A stretch of 64,000 bases of DNA from Erythrobacter sp. 3-20A1M (GTDB lineage Bacteria; Pseudomonadota; Alphaproteobacteria; Sphingomonadales; Sphingomonadaceae). Location: assembly GCF_018636735.1 (NCBI RefSeq), contig NZ_CP045200.1, positions 1,302,001 through 1,366,000 of the forward strand, given 5' to 3'. Positions 31,514-45,043 of this stretch are shown in pieces. The notes beneath the pieces are model-generated. The model saw nothing but the letters and a program-made list of their open reading frames with translations. It was not told where the DNA came from and ran no database searches. A program made the position numbers and the translations under genes. How positions within the stretch are numbered: the stretch's first letter is position 1; each line of letters begins with the position of its first letter.

Positions 31514-32109
31514 GCAGCAATCGCCCCGCGATCGCGCAGCGCGGCCAGCACCTGGAGCAGCGGCAAGCCGAGCACGGTGAACTGGTCGCCGATGATGGCA
31601 TCGAACAATTGCACCCCGCGCCCCTCGATCCGGAACACGCCGACGCATCCGGCAACCGCCGGCCATTCGGCACGCAGATAGCCTTCGATGAATTCGTCGG
31701 ACAGCGCACGCACCTGCAAGCTTGCCATATCACCGCCGATCCATTCGATCCGGCCATCGACCGCCAGCGCAGCGGCACTGTGCAGACGCATCGTCTTGCC
31801 GGAGAAGAAGCGCAGATGCTCCGCGGCCTCGATGCGCGAAGCGGGCTTGTCGAAGCGGCGGTCGTCGACCTCCACCAGGCTGTCGCTGCCCAGCACCAGC
31901 CGTCCGGGATGATCGTGCGAGATCGCCGCCGCCTTGGCCGCGGCAAGCGCCTGCGCCACTTCGGCCGGTTCGGCATCCTCCATCGCCGCCTCGAGCGCCC
32001 GCTCGTCCACATCGGCGGGCCACGATTCGAACGGGATGCCCGCCGCGCCCAGCATGGCCCGGCGCGATTCGCTCTTCGATGCGAGGAGCAGGGCGGGATA
32101 TTCGGTCAG
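31510..32109 (-). CDS. maf: Maf nucleotide pyrophosphatase, unusual start
   Basis: Maf-family proteins hydrolyse non-canonical nucleoside triphosphates. Family motifs are LLASKSESRRAMLGAAGIPFE, RLVLGSDSLVEVDD with the catalytic Asp, and GRGVQLFDAIIGDQFTVLGLPL. No ATG, GTG or TTG lies close before the essential LLASKSESRR motif. The best start is CTG at 32107-32109, overlapping the PPSR stop as CTGA, in the position where ATGA is used at the next two junctions. This gives 199 residues. A one-base error is the alternative. Confidence 0.88.
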   Translation of the reverse strand: MTEYPALLLASKSESRRAMLGAAGIPFESWPADVDERALEAAMEDAEPAEVAQALAAAKAAAISHDHPGRLVLGSDSLVEVDDRRFDKPASRIEAAEHLRFFSGKTMRLHSAAALAVDGRIEWIGGDMASLQVRALSDEFIEGYLRAEWPAVAGCVGVFRIEGRGVQLFDAIIGDQFTVLGLPLLQVLAALRDRGAIAA

Positions 32110-32942
32110 ATCGGCTTCTCCCCGGGCTTCACGCGTTCCTTGCGTTCGGTGAAGATACTGATCACCGCCGCGGCGGTTTCCTCGATCGACCGACGCGTGA
32201 CGTCGATCACCGGCCAGTTGTTGTCGGCGAACAGGCGCCGTGCGAACCGTACCTCTTCCGACACCCGCTCCTTCTCCACATAGGCGGTTTCGGTCGCTTC
32301 GTTCAGCGAAAGCAGACGGTTTCGCCTGATCTGGACCAGCCGGTCGGGCGCGGTCGTGAGGCCGACGACCAGCGGATGGCGCAATCCGAACAGCGCGGGC
32401 GGGGGCGGGCTTTCCATCACCAATGGAATATTCGCCACCTTGAAGCCGCGATTGGCAAGATAGATGCTCGTCGGCGTCTTCGAACTGCGCGAAACGCCGG
32501 CGAGCACGATATCCGCCTCTTCCCACTCCTCCCAGCCGACCCCGTCGTCGTGCGCGATCGTGTACTGGATCGCATCGACCCGGTCGAAATACGCCTCGTC
32601 CATGCGGTGCTGGCGACCGGGCCGGCCATGCGCCTCTTGCCCCAATTGCCGTTCGAGCGAATCGACAACGTTTTCGAGCGCATCCACGGAGGGAAGGGAC
32701 AGTTCCCGGCAATGATGTTCCAACGCGGCGCGGGTATCGGGATTGACCAGCGTATAGAGCACCAGCCCCGGGCTCTCAGCGAGTTCGGGCGCGATCCGGT
32801 CGAGATGCTGGCGCGATCGCACCATCGGCCAGAAATGGCGTATCACATCGATATTCTCGAACTGGGCCAGCGCGGCCTTCGCCACCATTTCGAGTGTCTC
32901 GCCGGTGGAATCCGAAAGGAGGTGCAAATGCATGCGGCTCAT
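32106..32942 (-). CDS. PPDK/PEP-synthase regulatory kinase-phosphorylase (DUF299)
   Basis: PPSR proteins inactivate pyruvate-phosphate dikinase or PEP synthase by ADP-dependent phosphorylation and reactivate them by phosphorolysis. The P-loop-like motif is GVSRSSKTPTSIYLAN, and the N-terminus is MHLHLLSDSTGETLEMVAKAALAQF. I chose the ATG at 32940-32942 (278 residues); the ATG at 32931-32933 is equally good. This is the RP001-type gene that borders oriC in Caulobacter and Rickettsia; it is read away from the gap at 32943-33268. Confidence 0.94.
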   Translation of the reverse strand: MSRMHLHLLSDSTGETLEMVAKAALAQFENIDVIRHFWPMVRSRQHLDRIAPELAESPGLVLYTLVNPDTRAALEHHCRELSLPSVDALENVVDSLERQLGQEAHGRPGRQHRMDEAYFDRVDAIQYTIAHDDGVGWEEWEEADIVLAGVSRSSKTPTSIYLANRGFKVANIPLVMESPPPPALFGLRHPLVVGLTTAPDRLVQIRRNRLLSLNEATETAYVEKERVSEEVRFARRLFADNNWPVIDVTRRSIEETAAAVISIFTERKERVKPGEKPI

Positions 32943-32968
32943 GATGCGCGCGAGCCTGCACGCGGGGG

Positions 32969-32977
32969 TGTGGAGAA
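32969..32977 (-). promoter_or_regulatory. DnaA box, one mismatch
   Basis: Reads TTCTCCACA on the minus strand, one mismatch to TTATCCACA. It is at the PPSR side of the proposed origin. Confidence 0.55.
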
Positions 32978-33092
32978 CGCAAGGCATAAACGTGCGGACA
33001 GGCCTGGGGATGAGGCAGTGGACCGATTCCACCCCCGCTATGCCGGGTTTCGCCCGCGGGCTTGTCCGCGTGCCGCGCGATAATCGACAGCC

Positions 33093-33101
33093 TCTGGATA
33101 A
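33093..33101 (-). promoter_or_regulatory. DnaA box, one mismatch
   Basis: Reads TTATCCAGA on the minus strand, one mismatch to TTATCCACA. It is in the centre of the proposed origin and is the best box there. Confidence 0.6.
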
Positions 33102-33200
33102 GCGGGAAAACGAGTCTTTGACTCACGTCGGCGGGCGAGTCGGATGGTGGCAAAGGGGTGGCTCGTGCGGGAGAATTCGGGCAGGGATGCGCCATCCCCG

Positions 33201-33209
33201 CTTTCCACA
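33201..33209 (+). promoter_or_regulatory. Weak DnaA box
   Basis: CTTTCCACA has two mismatches to TTATCCACA but keeps the CCACA core. It lies 17 bases from the AT-rich tract, as expected for a box beside the unwinding element. Confidence 0.4.
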
Positions 33210-33225
33210 GGGCCAACAGACTCCA

Positions 33226-33256
33226 TCATCCTATCTATAAATAAGTATATTATTGG
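33226..33256. other. AT-rich tract, candidate DNA unwinding element
   Basis: The segment CCTATCTATAAATAAGTATA and its flank is mostly A/T, unlike the roughly 65% GC around it, and ends 12 bases before the hemE ATG. It can serve as unwinding element, as hemE promoter -10 region, or both, as in Caulobacter. Confidence 0.6.
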
Positions 33257-33268
33257 ATTCCCGACCCG

Positions 33269-34294
33269 ATGCCCGGACCTCTCCTCGACACGCTGCGCGG
33301 CACGCGCGGTTCCACCGTTCCGCTCTGGCTCATGCGGCAGGCCGGTCGGTACCTGCCCGAATATCGCGAATTGCGGGCGGAAAAGGGCGGGTTCCTCGAC
33401 CTCGTCTACGACAGCGAGGCGGCGTGCGAGGTGACGCTGCAGCCGATCCGGCGCTTCGGCTTCGACGGGGCGATCCTGTTTTCCGATATCCTGATCGTGC
33501 CCTACGCGATGGGACAGGACCTGCGCTTCCTGGCGGGGGAGGGCCCGCAGCTTTCGCCGCCGCTGAAGGACACCGCACTCGATACCCTGACGAGCGACCG
33601 CACCCGGCTGGACGCGATCTACGATACCGTCCGCCAGGTACGCGCCGCGCTGGACGACCGGACGACCCTGCTGGGCTTCGCGGGCAGCCCGTGGACCGTC
33701 GCGACCTACATGATCGCGGGCGAGGGGAGCCGCGACCAGCATGCCGCCCGGGCCATGGCCTATCGCGATGCGGAGCGCCTTGGCGAGATCGTCGACGCCA
33801 TCGCACGGCTGACGGTGGAATATCTGATCGGCCAGATCGATGCCGGGGCGGAAGGGGTACAACTGTTCGACAGTTGGGCCGGCAGTCTCGCGCCCGACCA
33901 GTTCGAACGCTGGGTGGTCGCGCCCAATGCCTGGATCGTCGAGCAATTGCGTGCGGCGCGGCCCGACGTCCCGATCATCGGCTTTCCAAAGGGCGCCGGC
34001 GAGAAACTGCCCCTCTATGCGCGCGAAACCGGAGTCGATGCGCTGGGCCTGGACGAGACGATCGATCCGCGCTGGGCGGCGGCCAATCTGCCGCGCGAGC
34101 TGCCGGTTCAGGGCAATCTCGATCCGCTGCTGATTCTCGCTGGCGGCGATGCCATGGTGGAGCGTACGCGGGAGATCCTCTCTGCCTTCGCCGACCGTCC
34201 GCATGTGTTCAATCTGGGCCACGGGATCGACCGGCGCACGCCGATCGCGCATGTCGAGCGGCTGGTTGCGACGGTTCGCGATTGGCAGGGCTGA
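33269..34294 (+). CDS. hemE: Uroporphyrinogen decarboxylase
   Basis: HemE decarboxylates uroporphyrinogen III to coproporphyrinogen III in heme synthesis. The 341-residue protein has PLWLMRQAGRYLPEYRE (substrate arginines), ILFSDILIVPYAMGQ with the catalytic Asp, GFAGSPWTVATYMI, and the C-terminal FNLGHGIDRRTPIAHVERLV. The ATG at 33269 is preceded directly by the AT-rich end of the origin region. hemJ follows after 24 bases. Confidence 0.97.
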   Translation: MPGPLLDTLRGTRGSTVPLWLMRQAGRYLPEYRELRAEKGGFLDLVYDSEAACEVTLQPIRRFGFDGAILFSDILIVPYAMGQDLRFLAGEGPQLSPPLKDTALDTLTSDRTRLDAIYDTVRQVRAALDDRTTLLGFAGSPWTVATYMIAGEGSRDQHAARAMAYRDAERLGEIVDAIARLTVEYLIGQIDAGAEGVQLFDSWAGSLAPDQFERWVVAPNAWIVEQLRAARPDVPIIGFPKGAGEKLPLYARETGVDALGLDETIDPRWAAANLPRELPVQGNLDPLLILAGGDAMVERTREILSAFADRPHVFNLGHGIDRRTPIAHVERLVATVRDWQG

Positions 34295-40715: not shown

Positions 40716-40731
40716 TGTTCCACGTGGAACG
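40716..40731. promoter_or_regulatory. parS site between mnmE and mnmG (1)
   Basis: TGTTCCACGTGGAACG is a 14-base perfect palindrome matching the parS form TGTTCCACGTGGAACA except the last base. It lies three bases after the mnmE stop. Confidence 0.85.
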
Positions 40732-40752
40732 GTCCTGACTCCATGGTGAGTG

Positions 40753-40768
40753 TGTTTCACGTGGAACG
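40753..40768. promoter_or_regulatory. parS site between mnmE and mnmG (2)
   Basis: TGTTTCACGTGGAACG, 14 of 16 to the TGTTTCACGTGAAACA consensus, 37 bases from the previous site. The two form a pair in the 99-base mnmE-mnmG gap. Confidence 0.85.
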
Positions 40769-40811
40769 GGTGGCCTCGCCATTGAGCATCGGATATAAAC
40801 GGCGCGTGAGC

Positions 40812-42661
40812 ATGTATGATGTTATCGTGGTGGGTGGCGGGCACGCCGGTGTCGAAGCGGCATGTGCCGCCGCACGCATGGGGTGTCATACTGCTCTGCT
40901 GACTTTCCGCGTCGACAAGATCGGGGCCATGAGCTGCAATCCCGCGATAGGGGGCCTGGGCAAGGGTCATCTGGTTCGGGAGGTCGATGCGCTGGATGGC
41001 ATTATCGCGCGCGCTGCAGATGCCGCAGCGATCCACTACCGCATGCTCAACCGCTCGAAGGGCAGCGCGGTCTGGGGTCCGCGCATACAGGCGGACCGAA
41101 CTGTATTCCGCCGAGCGGTCAGCAGGCGGTATGGGATCAAGAAGGCCTCGAGGTGCTTGAGGGTGAGGCTGCGGCGCTTGTCCTTAAAGGTGGGGCGGTC
41201 GTTGGCGTCGACCTGGCCGAAGGAGGGCGGGTTGAGGCGCATGCCGTGGTTCTTTGCACGGGTACATTTCTCGGGGGTCGTTTGTATCGGGGTGAAGAGC
41301 GCCTCGAGGGCGGACGCATCGGAGAGAATTCTGCGCATCGTCTAGCCCAACAGGTGCGTGAACTTGAACTCCCGATGGGACGGCTCAAGACGGGTACGCC
41401 GCCGCGGCTCGACGGACGCACGATAGACTGGGCGCGGCTCGAAGAGCAGCCCTCCGACAGCGAGCCATGGACAATGTCCGACCTCGGACCGGGGCGAGTG
41501 AATCCGACCATCTTCTGTTCGGTGGCACGGACCACACGGGCCGGTCACGATCTCATTCGTGCCAACCTCGATCGCTCGCCGCTATTCTCCGGGGCGATCG
41601 GCGCCGAGGGGCCGCGCTATTGCCCATCGATCGAGGACAAGATTCATCGGTTCGGCGATCGGGAGGGACATCAAATCTTTCTCGAACCAGAGGGACTCGA
41701 TACGCCACTGGTCTATCCGAATGGGATCAGCACCTCGCTGCCAGTGGATGTGCAGGAGGGATTTCTCCGCACCATGTCGGGGCTCGAGTCGGTGGAGATG
41801 GTCGAGCCAGGCTACGCGGTAGAGTATGATTACATCGATCCCCGGGCGCTCGATCGCCAACTCGCCTTGCGGGCCTTGCCGGGTCTCTACTGCGCCGGCC
41901 AGCTCAACGGCACCACGGGATACGAGGAGGCCGCGGCGCAGGGACTGATCGCGGGCATGGGAGCGGCAGGCAGGGTACTGGGCCTCGAGCCCATTCGGCT
42001 GGATAGGGCGAACAGTTACATGGCAGTGATGGTGGACGACCTGACCCTCCAGGGCGTGACCGAGCCCTATCGCATGCTGACCGCGCGCGCCGAATACCGA
42101 TTGCGGCTGCGTGCGAACAATGCGGCCACGCGCATTACGCCGCTGGGTATTGAAGCCGGGGTGGTCGGACCGGACAGAGCGAAGTGGTTTGCCGAACGCG
42201 AAGAGCGGCGGGCGAAGATCGATTCTCGTTTGGACCACGAGGCAGGGCCACAGGATCTGCGAGCCCTGGGGTTTTCGGCGAAGGATGACGCGGGGCGCCA
42301 GACGCTGCGTGAGTGGCTGCGTTTCCCCGGTGTCGACCTGCAGACCCTGGCTCCGATGCTTAAGGTGCCCGAGATCGCACTCGATCCTGAGTTGGCTCAA
42401 GAGGTGGCAGAGGACGCCGCCTATGCGCCCTACCTGGCTCGACAGGAAGCCGAGCTGCGCGACCTGCGCGCGAGCGAAGGCGTGACTCTACCCGGCGACT
42501 TTCCCTACCATTCGGTCCCCGGTCTGTCGCGAGAGATGATTGAGCGCCTCGAAAGCGCTCGGCCTGATAGTCTTGCGGCTGCGGGGCGCGTACCCGGGGT
42601 GACCCCTGCTGCTCTGGCGATCCTGCTGGTCCACGCCAGACGCGAACGCGTATCGGCATGA
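40812..42661 (+). pseudogene. mnmG: MnmG tRNA-modification enzyme, frameshifted
   Basis: MnmG (GidA) is the FAD-binding partner of MnmE. The ATG 40812 opens [24 protein letters not shown] and runs through [26 protein letters not shown] to RTVFRRAV. Then the frame must shift by one base near 41117-41121 to continue [21 protein letters not shown]. It then stays open to 42661, with [30 protein letters not shown] and the C-terminal helical domain. Adding one base in GCGGT-CAGCAG restores a normal protein of about 616 residues. No other decay is seen, so an assembly error is more likely than a true pseudogene. Confidence 0.93.
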
Positions 42662-43293
42662 TCGAAGATGAAGTCAGTGCGCGCGAATATGTCGCTCGAT
42701 GGGGCGATGGCGCGGCGATGGAGCGTCTGGACACGCTTGTCTCCCATCTCGGGGTTGAGAACAGGAGGCAGAATCTGGTTTCCGAGAAGACCTTGGCCGA
42801 AGTCTGGCAAAGGCACATCGCCGATAGCGCGCAGCTCTTGGAATACGTTCCACGTGGAACATCCCCTTGGTTGGATCTCGGAAGCGGGGCGGGGTTTCCT
42901 GGATTGGTGCTAGCTGTCCTACAGCCGGAACTCCCGATTTACCTCGTCGAATCGCGCCGCAGGCGGATCGATTGGCTCGAGCAAATGCGCGATGTGCTGG
43001 ACCTGCCGAAGTGCGAGATTATCGGCCAACGTGTGGAAACCATCCAACCCATCGCGGCTGGAGCCATTACCGCACGTGCCTTCGCCCCTCTTGAACGCCT
43101 GCTTGCGCTTTCGGCCGAGTTTTCCACCCCATCGACCCATTGGGTCTTGCCGAAGGGTCGGTCGGCGCGGCAAGAACTAGAGAACCTCGAGGCCGAATGG
43201 GGTCTTCGGTTTCACGTGGAACCTTCGCTGACGCACTCGGAAAGTGCTATCCTGGTGGGGAAGGGTGTCGCTCAGAAAAGGAAGCGGGCATGA
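42658..43293 (+). CDS. rsmG: 16S rRNA m7G527 methyltransferase RsmG
   Basis: RsmG methylates G527 of 16S rRNA using SAM. The 211-residue protein has the SAM loop [18 protein letters not shown] and the following acidic [12 protein letters not shown], then [12 protein letters not shown] and WVLPKGRS. The ATG overlaps the mnmG stop by four bases and the stop overlaps the parA start. Two parS palindromes lie in the coding sequence. Confidence 0.95.
42846..42861. promoter_or_regulatory. parS site inside rsmG (1)
   Basis: CGTTCCACGTGGAACA has the full GTTCCACGTGGAAC palindrome; only the first base departs from the consensus. It is in the N-terminal third of rsmG. Confidence 0.82.
43208..43223. promoter_or_regulatory. 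parS site inside rsmG (2)
   Basis: GGTTTCACGTGGAACC keeps the GTTTCACGTGGAAC core, with both outer bases changed. It is near the 3' end of rsmG, 82 bases before parA. Confidence 0.75.
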
Positions 43294-44066
43294 TCACGAT
43301 AGCGATTGCGAACCAGAAGGGTGGGGTGGGGAAGACCACCACCGCAATCAATGTCGCTACCGCGATGGCGGCCACAGGTTGGAAGACGCTTCTGATCGAC
43401 CTGGATCCCCAGGGGAATGCATCGACTGGGCTAGGCATCCCCTCAGGTGAGCGCTCTTTTTCCAGCTACGACCTGTTGGTCGAACAATCTCCGATAGCGG
43501 ACTGTCTTCAAGGGACTTCGATCCCGGGCCTCGATATTATTCCGGCAACGCAGGATTTGAGCGGTGCCGAGATCGAGCTCGTATCCGTAAACGACCGTGC
43601 CGCCCGGCTGGACGGCGCGCTTGGCAACCACGCGCAACATGAAATTTGCTTCATCGACTGCCCGCCTTCGCTGGGCCTGCTTACTCTGAACGCCTTGACC
43701 GCGGCGGATACGCTATTGGTACCGCTTCAGTGCGAGTTCTTCGCACTGGAAGGATTGAGCCAGCTGCTGCAGACGGTTGAGCAAGTCCAGCAGAGATTCA
43801 ACTCGCGGCTCGGGATAATCGGGATCGCACTCACCATGTTCGATCGCCGCAACAGATTGACGGACCAGGTAGCCGACGATGTCCGTGATTGCCTAGGCGA
43901 ACTGGTGTTCAATTCGGTCATTCCGCGCAACGTCCGTCTTTCGGAAGCGCCGAGCCACGGCTTGCCGGCGCTTGTGTACGATCACGCCTGCGCGGGAAGC
44001 CGTGCCTATATGGCGCTTGCGAGCGAGCTGATCGCGCGTCTGCCTGAGAAGAGGAAAGCTGCATGA
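43290..44066 (+). CDS. parA: Chromosome partition ATPase ParA
   Basis: ParA is a Walker-type ATPase that moves ParB-bound origins to the cell poles. The 258-residue protein has the deviant Walker A KGGVGKTTT at residues 10-18 and DLDPQGNASTGLG. CFIDCPPSLGLL (Walker B) and the DNA-binding segment LVFNSVIPRNVRLSEAPSHGLP follow. The ATG overlaps the rsmG stop (ATGA). The chromosomal Soj-like form, not a plasmid type, is indicated by length and neighbours. Confidence 0.97.
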   Translation: MITIAIANQKGGVGKTTTAINVATAMAATGWKTLLIDLDPQGNASTGLGIPSGERSFSSYDLLVEQSPIADCLQGTSIPGLDIIPATQDLSGAEIELVSVNDRAARLDGALGNHAQHEICFIDCPPSLGLLTLNALTAADTLLVPLQCEFFALEGLSQLLQTVEQVQQRFNSRLGIIGIALTMFDRRNRLTDQVADDVRDCLGELVFNSVIPRNVRLSEAPSHGLPALVYDHACAGSRAYMALASELIARLPEKRKAA

Positions 44067-45043
44067 GTTCGTCCGATCCTGTCCATGCCGGCTCCGTACC
44101 CCGGGCTACCGATCGGAAGAAGAAACTGGGCAGGGGGCTCGGCGCGCTTCTGGGCGAGACACGACGCGAAGAGCCTTTCGTCCATAACAAAGACGGTGAA
44201 GCCGTTTCACGTGGAACAGCCGAAAGTACCGGTAGCGCGACGACAGGGCTTGCTTCGCTCCCGGTAGCTTCGATCGAACCGCTTCCTGGGCAACCGCGCA
44301 CCCGTTTCGATGAAGACGCCCTGGACGAGCTCTCACGTTCGATTGCCGCGCGGGGTGTCATCCAGCCTATCATCGTTCGCCCGCTCGCTGGCGACCGTTA
44401 TCAGCTCGTTGCCGGTGAACGACGTTGGCGGGCCGCACAAAAGGCACGGCTCCACGATATTCCCGCGATCGTTCGGAATCTCGACGAGAGCGAAGTCATG
44501 GCGCTGGCCCTGATCGAGAATATCCAGCGTGAGGACCTAAACCCGATCGAGGAAGCACGGGCCTATCACCAGCTGGGCGAGCAGGAGGGGATGAGCCAGA
44601 ACGACATCGCCAAACTGGTCGACAAGTCTCGCAGCCATGTCGCAAATCTGCAGCGTCTGCTCGCCCTGCCGGACGACGTAATTGCCTTGGTAGAAGAGGA
44701 AGCGCTTTCGATGGGGCACGCGCGTGCCCTGATCGGTCATGACGATGCATCCTCGCTCGCTCGCCAGGCGATCGCCGAGAAACTGACGGTCCGCGACGTC
44801 GAACGTCTCGTTCGTTCGGGCTCGACGAAAGAGGAGAGCAAGGGTCGCCGGGGCAAATCACCAGCGGACAGTGCAGAAAATGCCGACATCGCGGCGGTGC
44901 AGCGGCATCTGGAAGAATTTCTCGGTCTCACGGTCCGGATCAAGAGCGACGCCGATTCGCGATCCGGCGCGGTGACCATTCGCTACCGCACTCTCGATCA
45001 GCTCGACCTGATCTGCCAGCGGCTCACCGGCGGAGAAATATAG
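44063..45043 (+). CDS. parB: Chromosome partition protein ParB
   Basis: ParB is a CTP-dependent clamp that loads at parS and spreads. The 326-residue protein has N-terminal KKLGRGLGALLG (ParA-contact). Box PGQPRTRFDEDALDELSRSI, the nuclease-like GERRWRAAQKA, ENIQREDLNPIEEA and the helix-turn-helix MSQNDIAKLVDKSRSHVANLQRLL follow. A C-terminal dimer domain ends the chain. It overlaps parA by four bases and itself contains a parS-like site near its start. Confidence 0.97.
   Translation: MSSSDPVHAGSVPRATDRKKKLGRGLGALLGETRREEPFVHNKDGEAVSRGTAESTGSATTGLASLPVASIEPLPGQPRTRFDEDALDELSRSIAARGVIQPIIVRPLAGDRYQLVAGERRWRAAQKARLHDIPAIVRNLDESEVMALALIENIQREDLNPIEEARAYHQLGEQEGMSQNDIAKLVDKSRSHVANLQRLLALPDDVIALVEEEALSMGHARALIGHDDASSLARQAIAEKLTVRDVERLVRSGSTKEESKGRRGKSPADSAENADIAAVQRHLEEFLGLTVRIKSDADSRSGAVTIRYRTLDQLDLICQRLTGGEI
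44203..44218. promoter_or_regulatory. parS site inside parB
   Basis: CGTTTCACGTGGAACA matches the consensus at 14 of 16 bases. It is in the N-terminal coding part of parB, where Caulobacter-like genomes also carry copies. Confidence 0.8.

Follow-up and report, generated by a model that had tools for sequence, protein, structure and literature searches.

Probable hemE-side replication origin of Erythrobacter sp. 3-20A1M contains a cluster of GANTC sites and a conserved promoter-like element

An oriC on the hemE side is predicted for most Sphingomonadaceae in DoriC (as cited in PMC4741004), and the hemE border has been used for origin finding elsewhere in the Alphaproteobacteria (PMC1914354). 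The oriC predicted in Sphingopyxis granuli TFA and in further Sphingomonadaceae resembles the intergenic gap described here in its position beside hemE, its conserved gene order, its DnaA boxes and its putative unwinding element; GANTC and CcrM are absent from the main text of that description (PMC4741004). In Sphingomonadales, dnaA is reported to lie away from the origin (PMC8116508). The Caulobacter crescentus origin, Cori, has weak and strong DnaA boxes, an AT-rich region and hemE transcription leaving the origin, as here; it also has five full CtrA boxes, whereas exact ones were absent from all 97 sphingomonad gaps in this study, and an ncRNA, CcnA, is described there (PMC8959179), whereas no Rfam family matched in or near our gap. 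Transcription of hemE in Caulobacter is described as important for replication, with CtrA as a negative regulator (PMC8959179).

Methylation motifs have also been described at origins. Conserved clusters of orphan-methylase motifs, like that of GANTC in the sphingomonads, are reported for GATC/Dam, TTAA, CTCGAG and CTAG, and GANTC appears in that report only in tables of unmethylated sites, outside its four origin systems (PMC4752239). Published repABC origins include GANTC-rich ones (PMC6090056, PMC11514494), and m6A methylation of GANTC is reported in Sphingomonas sp. AAP5 (PMC8067484). At methylated GANTC promoters GcrA recruits RNA polymerase (PMC3667746); the motif given for GcrA-activated promoters is YGAKTCG, with GAKTCG as its core (PMC7987155, quoting Haakonsen et al. 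2015), and no extended GcrA motif was found in Brevundimonas subvibrioides (PMC7987155). Our searches of the open-licence literature turned up no earlier description of a GANTC cluster or of a GcrA-type element in a sphingomonad oriC. The identity of a hemE-side origin, its layout, parS and skew are ordinary; the GANTC packing and the conserved promoter-like element in a sphingomonad origin, with full CtrA boxes absent, look new.

The window analysed was a 64-kb stretch of DNA (C1:1302001-1366000 of a single 3,116,220-bp contig, C1); positions without this prefix are those of the window. A probable oriC had been predicted in the gap between ppsR and hemE, and the locus has the following features.

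32943-33268 (326 bp), no strand: very probable oriC, the ppsR-hemE intergenic gap, from gene border, DnaA boxes, AT-rich tract, asymmetry break and nearby parS
32106-32942, minus strand: ppsR (DUF299), gene on the left side of the gap; 334.9 bits with NCBIfam NF003742 (cut-off 225)
33269-34294, plus strand: hemE (uroporphyrinogen decarboxylase), right border gene; TIGR01464, 380.4 bits, cut-off 303
43287-45043, plus strand: parA-like gene and parB, from profile search (ParA-family ATPase about 43287-44066; ParB 44063-45043)
40717-44217: parS cluster of five GTTYCACGTGRAAC sites (starts 40717, 40754, 42847, 43209 and 44204), from exact genome-wide match

ppsR reads to the left and hemE to the right, away from the gap, and the NF003742 and TIGR01464 matches confirmed the divergent DUF299/hemE border of the original prediction. 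Among the neighbourhood genes, the NCBIfam profile check covered ppsR, hemE, ParA and ParB; ParB scored 192.9 bits with TIGR00180 (cut-off 58), and the ParA matches fell below the family cut-offs. Judged from their translations, genes to the left of ppsR resemble maf, aroE, coaE and dnaQ, and those to the right of hemE resemble hemJ, rho, mnmE, mnmG, rsmG, parA and parB. Exact matches to the parS-type sequence occurred in the whole genome only at the five sites listed (C1:1342717-1346217), 7.4-10.9 kb from the gap, in agreement with the predicted parAB with parS within 11 kb. The mnmG-like gene (40743-42661) is split between two reading frames, one of which stops at 41345 while the other is open from 40862 to 42661; this is either a real frameshift or a sequence error.

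The gene order was compared among relatives. Of 60 genomes, our own included, 59 have hemE, and loci were obtained from 30, again with our own; in all 30 a gap of 287-382 bp separates ppsR from hemE in the ppsR-gap-hemE order. The same layout was present in 208 of 250 loci, comprising the 30 near loci, 80 named loci (those that ranked best among 586 matches) and 140 further regions, the last from 113 of 128 class genomes with a match and from 27 of the remaining order or family matches. Four of the 140 regions were assigned to the sphingomonad set and 103 to a comparison set of other Alphaproteobacteria, and 33 were left out (L180 among them). The sphingomonad loci numbered 100; L124, L130 and L180 had no called gap below 900 bp, which left 97 gaps, 93 of them distinct, that are related to one another and include some species twice. 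Fifteen named non-sphingomonads stand outside the 103, and six of them, with a gap, were counted in the GANTC shuffle comparison. Branches were drawn from a single-gene hemE tree whose deep forks are weak. In this tree the hemE of two same-genus genomes (G003 and G009) showed no difference from that of Citromicrobium sp. JLT1363 and C. bathyomarinum, and our own hemE grouped with G011, from another genus, which leaves the genus name uncertain. The host is a sphingomonad related to Citromicrobium/Erythrobacter. One record titled Bacillus sp. 2B10 (L126; RPSH01000003.1) has a hemE-ppsR locus that falls among sphingomonads, and its Bacillus label is probably wrong.

DnaA boxes were scored against the consensus TTATCCACA, which gave the following features in the gap.

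32969-32977, minus strand: DnaA-like box TTCTCCACA, one mismatch, in a block conserved in an alignment of 20 gaps
33005-33013, minus strand: weak DnaA-like box TCATCCCCA, two mismatches; GGACAAG in many relatives at the same place
33081-33089, plus strand: weak DnaA-like box TAATCGACA, two mismatches, in the 20-gap alignment
33093-33101, minus strand: DnaA-like box TTATCCAGA, one mismatch, in the 20-gap alignment
33201-33209, plus strand: weak DnaA-like box CTTTCCACA, two mismatches, adjoining the AT-rich tract
33232-33258, no strand: AT-rich tract, probable DNA unwinding element, visible in the 20 aligned gaps

Two one-mismatch boxes and a weaker one had been predicted; both of the former were recovered, and three boxes were found at two mismatches (33005, 33081 and 33201). 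The boxes in our gap are degenerate, none being exact. The 64-kb window has no exact box and five at one mismatch, and two one-mismatch boxes occurred together in 0.3% of its 326-bp windows, all with starts at 32768-32969. The predicted AT-rich tract was likewise recovered, the lowest-GC 50 bp of the window beginning at 33215 (32% GC). Among the sphingomonad gaps, boxes with at most one mismatch were present in 86 of 97 (174 sites vs. 4.4 in mononucleotide shuffles), all 97 had one or more boxes with no more than two mismatches (467 sites vs. 62.8 in shuffles), and plus-strand TCCACA was also in all 97, with a median distance of 67 bp between its last copy and hemE.

The alignment of 20 gaps showed strongly conserved blocks between variable stretches, and our gap is without two blocks that many relatives retain: at 32983-33013 it reads ATAAACGTG and GGATGAG where relatives keep ATAAACCAC (61 of 97) and GGACAAG (48 of 97). 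In several gaps of other Alphaproteobacteria (e.g., L160, L194, L202, and L239), CCACTACTAC-like triplets lie between the last DnaA box and the AT-rich tract; they are reminiscent of the DnaA-trio, on the other strand.

For GC skew we took 40 samples of 20 kb each together with the window, which was split in mid-gap; they cover 864 kb, or 28% of the contig. The cumulative skew reached its minimum after the left half of the window and its maximum after the sample at 2.96 Mb. In a two-break fit all origin positions from about 1.319 to 1.351 Mb tied, a range bounded by the midpoints of the two half-windows, with 1.35 Mb as its top and the gap at 1.335 Mb, and the other break fell at about 3.0-3.045 Mb in the top-ranked fits. 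The strand polarity of GGGNAGGG, the E. coli KOPS motif, gave the same origin break and placed the other at 3.08-3.105 Mb in its top-ranked fits. In contiguous DNA at the terminus the cumulative GC-skew maximum was at 3,045,155, and GGGNAGGG polarity flipped between 3,044,717 and 3,048,855 with one exception. A dif-like 28-mer is located at C1:3,045,958, with seven mismatches to E. coli dif; the best background match in 176 kb had 11. The arms from the gap to this site measure about 1.71 and 1.41 Mb.

The origin side of the asymmetry is less sharply placed, and some of these data would suit a true origin elsewhere, near dnaA or about 10 kb left of the gap, with the gap as a conserved regulatory region only. 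In contiguous DNA the GC-skew minimum fell at 1,323,693, in a shallow trough 11 kb left of the gap, the GGGNAGGG minimum fell at 1,325,928, 9 kb to the left, and skew at fourfold sites alone favoured an origin at 1.565 Mb, in disagreement with the gap. The skew and GGGNAGGG minima do not single out the gap, the origin-side resolution being about 10-30 kb. The sole DnaA-family match (C1:2,027,772) puts dnaA 692 kb from the gap. No lasting strand switch, however, was seen at the dnaA sample in the skew analysis, the exact parS-type sites lie close to the gap, and all 97 sphingomonad gaps have a box with no more than two mismatches; we consider an origin elsewhere highly improbable. The original prediction had expected the GC-skew minimum at the gap and named a minimum beside dnaA as evidence against it. 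The sampled minimum and the fit agree with this expectation to within about 1.319-1.351 Mb, and dnaA (2.028 Mb) is outside the fitted range, but the contiguous minimum and the fourfold sites do not point to the gap itself.

The marks of a hemE-type oriC were found together at this locus: the ppsR/hemE border, DnaA boxes with an AT-rich tract, an asymmetry switch paired with a dif-bearing terminus, and parABS nearby. Given the skew and GGGNAGGG breaks, the dif-like terminus, the restriction of parS to this region, the layout in 208 of 250 loci and the DnaA boxes, 32943-33268 is very probably the chromosomal oriC, as had been predicted from the layout. Anatomy, conservation, strand asymmetry and gene presence are direct observations. 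The accompanying remark that origins of marine sphingomonads are poorly studied was only partly fair, in view of the hemE-side oriC already predicted for most Sphingomonadaceae (PMC4741004).

The genome contains genes for CtrA (C1:1807522; NF045991, 425 bits, cut-off 350), GcrA (C1:556923) and a RAMA-domain, ccrM-like methylase of about 380 amino acids (C1:839803). No CtrA box (TTAA-N7-TTAA) was found in our gap, where the best matches had three mismatches, in line with the original prediction; the gap is therefore without the boxes that mark a CtrA-controlled origin. Exact CtrA boxes were found in 0 of 97 sphingomonad gaps, in a scan run without a Caulobacter origin as positive control, and in 9 of 103 other alphaproteobacterial gaps (10 sites, 2.6 expected). 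Boxes with one mismatch were present in 16 of the 97 (5.3 sites expected) and in 26 of the 103 (36 sites vs. 44.5 expected). The earlier suggestion that control of initiation may differ for want of CtrA sites thus holds family-wide. CckA-ChpT-CtrA is stated to be conserved in Sphingomonadales (PMC2877005). Sphingomonads keep ctrA, yet 97 of their origins have no exact CtrA box, and in Sphingomonas melonis the loss of ctrA is reported to have had no negative effect on growth or viability (PMC8116508), which together raise the question of how this large family ties initiation to the cell cycle.

Six GANTC sites, absent from the original prediction, are present in the gap.

33025-33029, no strand: GANTC site 1, GATTC, from sequence scan
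33112-33116, no strand: GANTC site 2, GAGTC, from sequence scan
33120-33124, no strand: GANTC site 3, GACTC, overlapping TTGAC
33137-33141, no strand: GANTC site 4, GAGTC, which forms the latter half of the promoter-like element
33219-33223, no strand: GANTC site 5, GACTC, past the last DnaA-like box and ahead of the AT-rich tract
33256-33260, no strand: GANTC site 6, GATTC, from sequence scan

This is a density of 18.4/kb, vs. 1.27/kb in the 864-kb sample, and about 10 times that of 179 other spacers of 150-600 bp (1.83/kb; divergent ones 2.59/kb), spacers being defined by a crude gene caller that called the origin gap itself coding. Six sites per 326 bp were reached at one other place in the sample, a divergent spacer with seven GANTC (C1:1495051-1495638; L021:14847-15434).

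GANTC was abundant in origin gaps throughout the family. In 93 sphingomonad gaps (30 + 63) we counted 399 sites vs. about 122 expected from dinucleotide shuffles, a 3.3-fold excess, with 138 vs. 42.0 in the near set (30 gaps) and 261 vs. 79.9 in the named sphingomonads (63 of 65 loci). Both sphingomonad branches are GANTC-rich (3.76 and 5.30 sites per gap), and the excess stays when the promoter-like element described below is set aside (341 vs. 112 in mononucleotide shuffles of 93 distinct gaps). In hemE coding DNA of the near set loci GANTC was depleted (34 vs. 129.5 expected). In 27 regions mostly from other families of the order there were 53 sites vs. 30.5 (24 gaps, eight of them without any site). 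Across the class, genomes with a RAMA-type methylase gene had 195 vs. 134.2 (ratio 1.45; 73 gaps from 89 regions, including two sphingomonads) and those without had 27 vs. 19.6 (ratio 1.38; 10 gaps of 24); a class-wide link between the GANTC excess of origins and RAMA-type methylase genes was thus sought and not found. The class-wide excess is slight and similar whether or not the gene is present, so the strong excess is a family trait and fails to follow the enzyme through the class; the GANTC cluster differs in this from the four methylase-motif clusters known from other origins (PMC4752239). Of the control motifs, AGNCT was 2.4-fold high, in part because CAGACTCC contains AGNCT, and CTNAG was low.

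Single cases had suggested that a GANTC accompanies the last DnaA box throughout the Alphaproteobacteria, an idea that was dropped: RAMA-positive gaps gave 6 vs. 6.2 expected, the box being present in 41 of 71 gaps. The order-level set gave 7 vs. 2.1 expected, with the box in 18 of 22 gaps.

Through hemimethylation the cluster could switch DnaA loading or origin sequestration on and off, like GATC/Dam at E. coli oriC, with transcription uninvolved. Such a role would fit the conserved orphan-methylase motif clusters at origins in four other systems (PMC4752239) and the persistence of the excess in both branches and without the element, but the class-wide lack of correlation with RAMA-type methylase genes and the promoter-like form of the element argue against it, and we consider a switch of this kind rather unlikely.

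The promoter-like element takes in GANTC sites 3 and 4.

33118-33142, plus strand: promoter-like element TTGAC-N14-GAGTCG, facing the AT-rich tract and hemE

TTGAC-N13/14-GANTC was present on the plus strand in 59 of 67 Erythrobacter/Novosphingobium gaps (62 of 67 with TTG[AC]C; three of the 67, all with the element, are unplaced in the hemE tree, and the strict count is 56 of 64) and in 0 of 30 Sphingobium/Sphingomonas gaps. On the minus strand it was found in 0 of 67 and 2 of 30, respectively. At spacings of 8-22, TTGAC-GANTC was found in 0 of 103 other alphaproteobacterial gaps and about 1 of 97 shuffled ones. Its position is fixed between the DnaA boxes and the AT-rich tract, with TTGAC starting 148-160 bp before hemE. 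In 49 distinct copies the free GANTC base was G (26) or T (23) and the next base was G in 46, neither of which the search pattern required; other GANTC sites in the same gaps had all four bases at the free position. In the 41 distinct copies with a spacer of 14, no spacer column exceeded 0.6 bit. Constant halves around a variable spacer point to a site bound by protein, of the -35/-10 kind, and the element is likely to be a promoter or another binding site of fixed spacing. A separate block, GTCAA-N1-3-TGTT[GT]GCAA, was present in 19 of 30 Sphingobium/Sphingomonas gaps and in 0 of 67 of the other branch; its reverse strand reads TTGAC.

Compared with Caulobacter GcrA/CcrM promoters (PMC3667746, PMC7987155), the element shares the GAKTCG core, and gcrA and a ccrM-like gene are present in the genome; it differs in that no clear -10 was recognised after GAKTCG in the gaps and the Y of YGAKTCG is not conserved among the copies. 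A scan of the gap for sigma-70 consensus promoters gave no match. GAKTCG with a -35-like TTGAC at fixed spacing is present in the gaps of this branch, and we infer that the pairing may define a promoter class of GcrA/CcrM type. In our own genome TTGAC-N13/14-GAKTC has nine copies, and six of the eight others are inside open frames of at least 181 amino acids; the reversed pattern had none, a weak control as CTNAG is itself scarce in gaps. In 1.03 Mb of own DNA, 9 of 16 G/T-type sites and 2 of 20 A/C-type sites lay at spacings of 14-17 after TTGAC (Fisher 0.004, for a range picked after the counts were seen and with most copies in called frames).

In bacterial origins in general, DnaA opens the AT-rich tract. 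From anatomy and homology, the degenerate boxes of the left and central parts of the gap would be where DnaA assembles here, before it opens the tract at 33232-33258 beside hemE. TTGAC-N14-GAGTCG would send transcription through this tract into hemE, RNA polymerase with GcrA reading the element on CcrM-methylated GANTC, and replication would hemimethylate the GANTC sites and so reset the promoter until CcrM acts again. The element would thereby stand in for CtrA, which at the Caulobacter origin is known to repress transcription of hemE. This scheme puts together the role of hemE transcription in Caulobacter and the recruitment of GcrA to methylated GANTC; protein binding, methylation of these GANTC sites, transcription and timing are all predicted from the DNA itself. 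In full, the sphingomonad origin would have swapped its regulator, with a GcrA-dependent promoter on CcrM sites instead of repressing CtrA boxes; late methylation would license hemE-ward transcription and initiation of the next cycle, and the fork would cancel the licence. We put the probability of this reading at about one in three. Control of the element by GcrA/CcrM has about an even chance, and its effect on initiation timing is proposed tentatively.

Several findings count against a GcrA/CcrM promoter: the lack of a recognisable -10, the lack of a class-wide link between GANTC and CcrM, and the Sphingobium/Sphingomonas branch, which is GANTC-rich without the element (0 of 30). In addition, a review states that Caulobacter initiates without need for CcrM, CcrM over-expression disturbing chromosome content (PMC6090056).

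The last point would also favour an origin in which the GANTC sites and the element serve ordinary expression of hemE (and ppsR), CcrM and GcrA tuning the gene only. The element does face hemE, and intergenic DNA across the Alphaproteobacteria is described as GANTC-over-represented (PMC3973325). However, our gap has about 10 times the GANTC density of the other sampled spacers, and hemE upstream regions without a ppsR neighbour had 27 vs. 16.9 in 15 RAMA-positive genomes (11 vs. 12.4 in 13 RAMA-negative ones), below the 3.3-fold excess of sphingomonad origins. Transcription of hemE in Caulobacter is, moreover, itself described as important for replication (PMC8959179). We rate a purely hemE-directed role as somewhat short of an even chance. 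Were the regulator swap true, CcrM methylation would be brought to a DnaA-type chromosomal origin, and the fixed GANTC element makes this answer to the initiation question testable by point changes that spare the DnaA boxes.

Two other places in the genome have related arrangements. At C1:2556145-2556168 (L298), TTGAC-N14-GATTC is followed by G; it is the sole one of the eight other copies that both has this G and lies outside any open frame above 71 amino acids, which makes it a candidate second promoter of the same kind. Exact TTATCCACA boxes number six in the genome, and one of them, at 840952 in the region upstream of the ccrM-like gene (C1:840930-841180; L303), lies about 20 bp before the start, directly behind TTGAC-N14-GACTC, so the ccrM-like gene may be subject to both DnaA and methylation.
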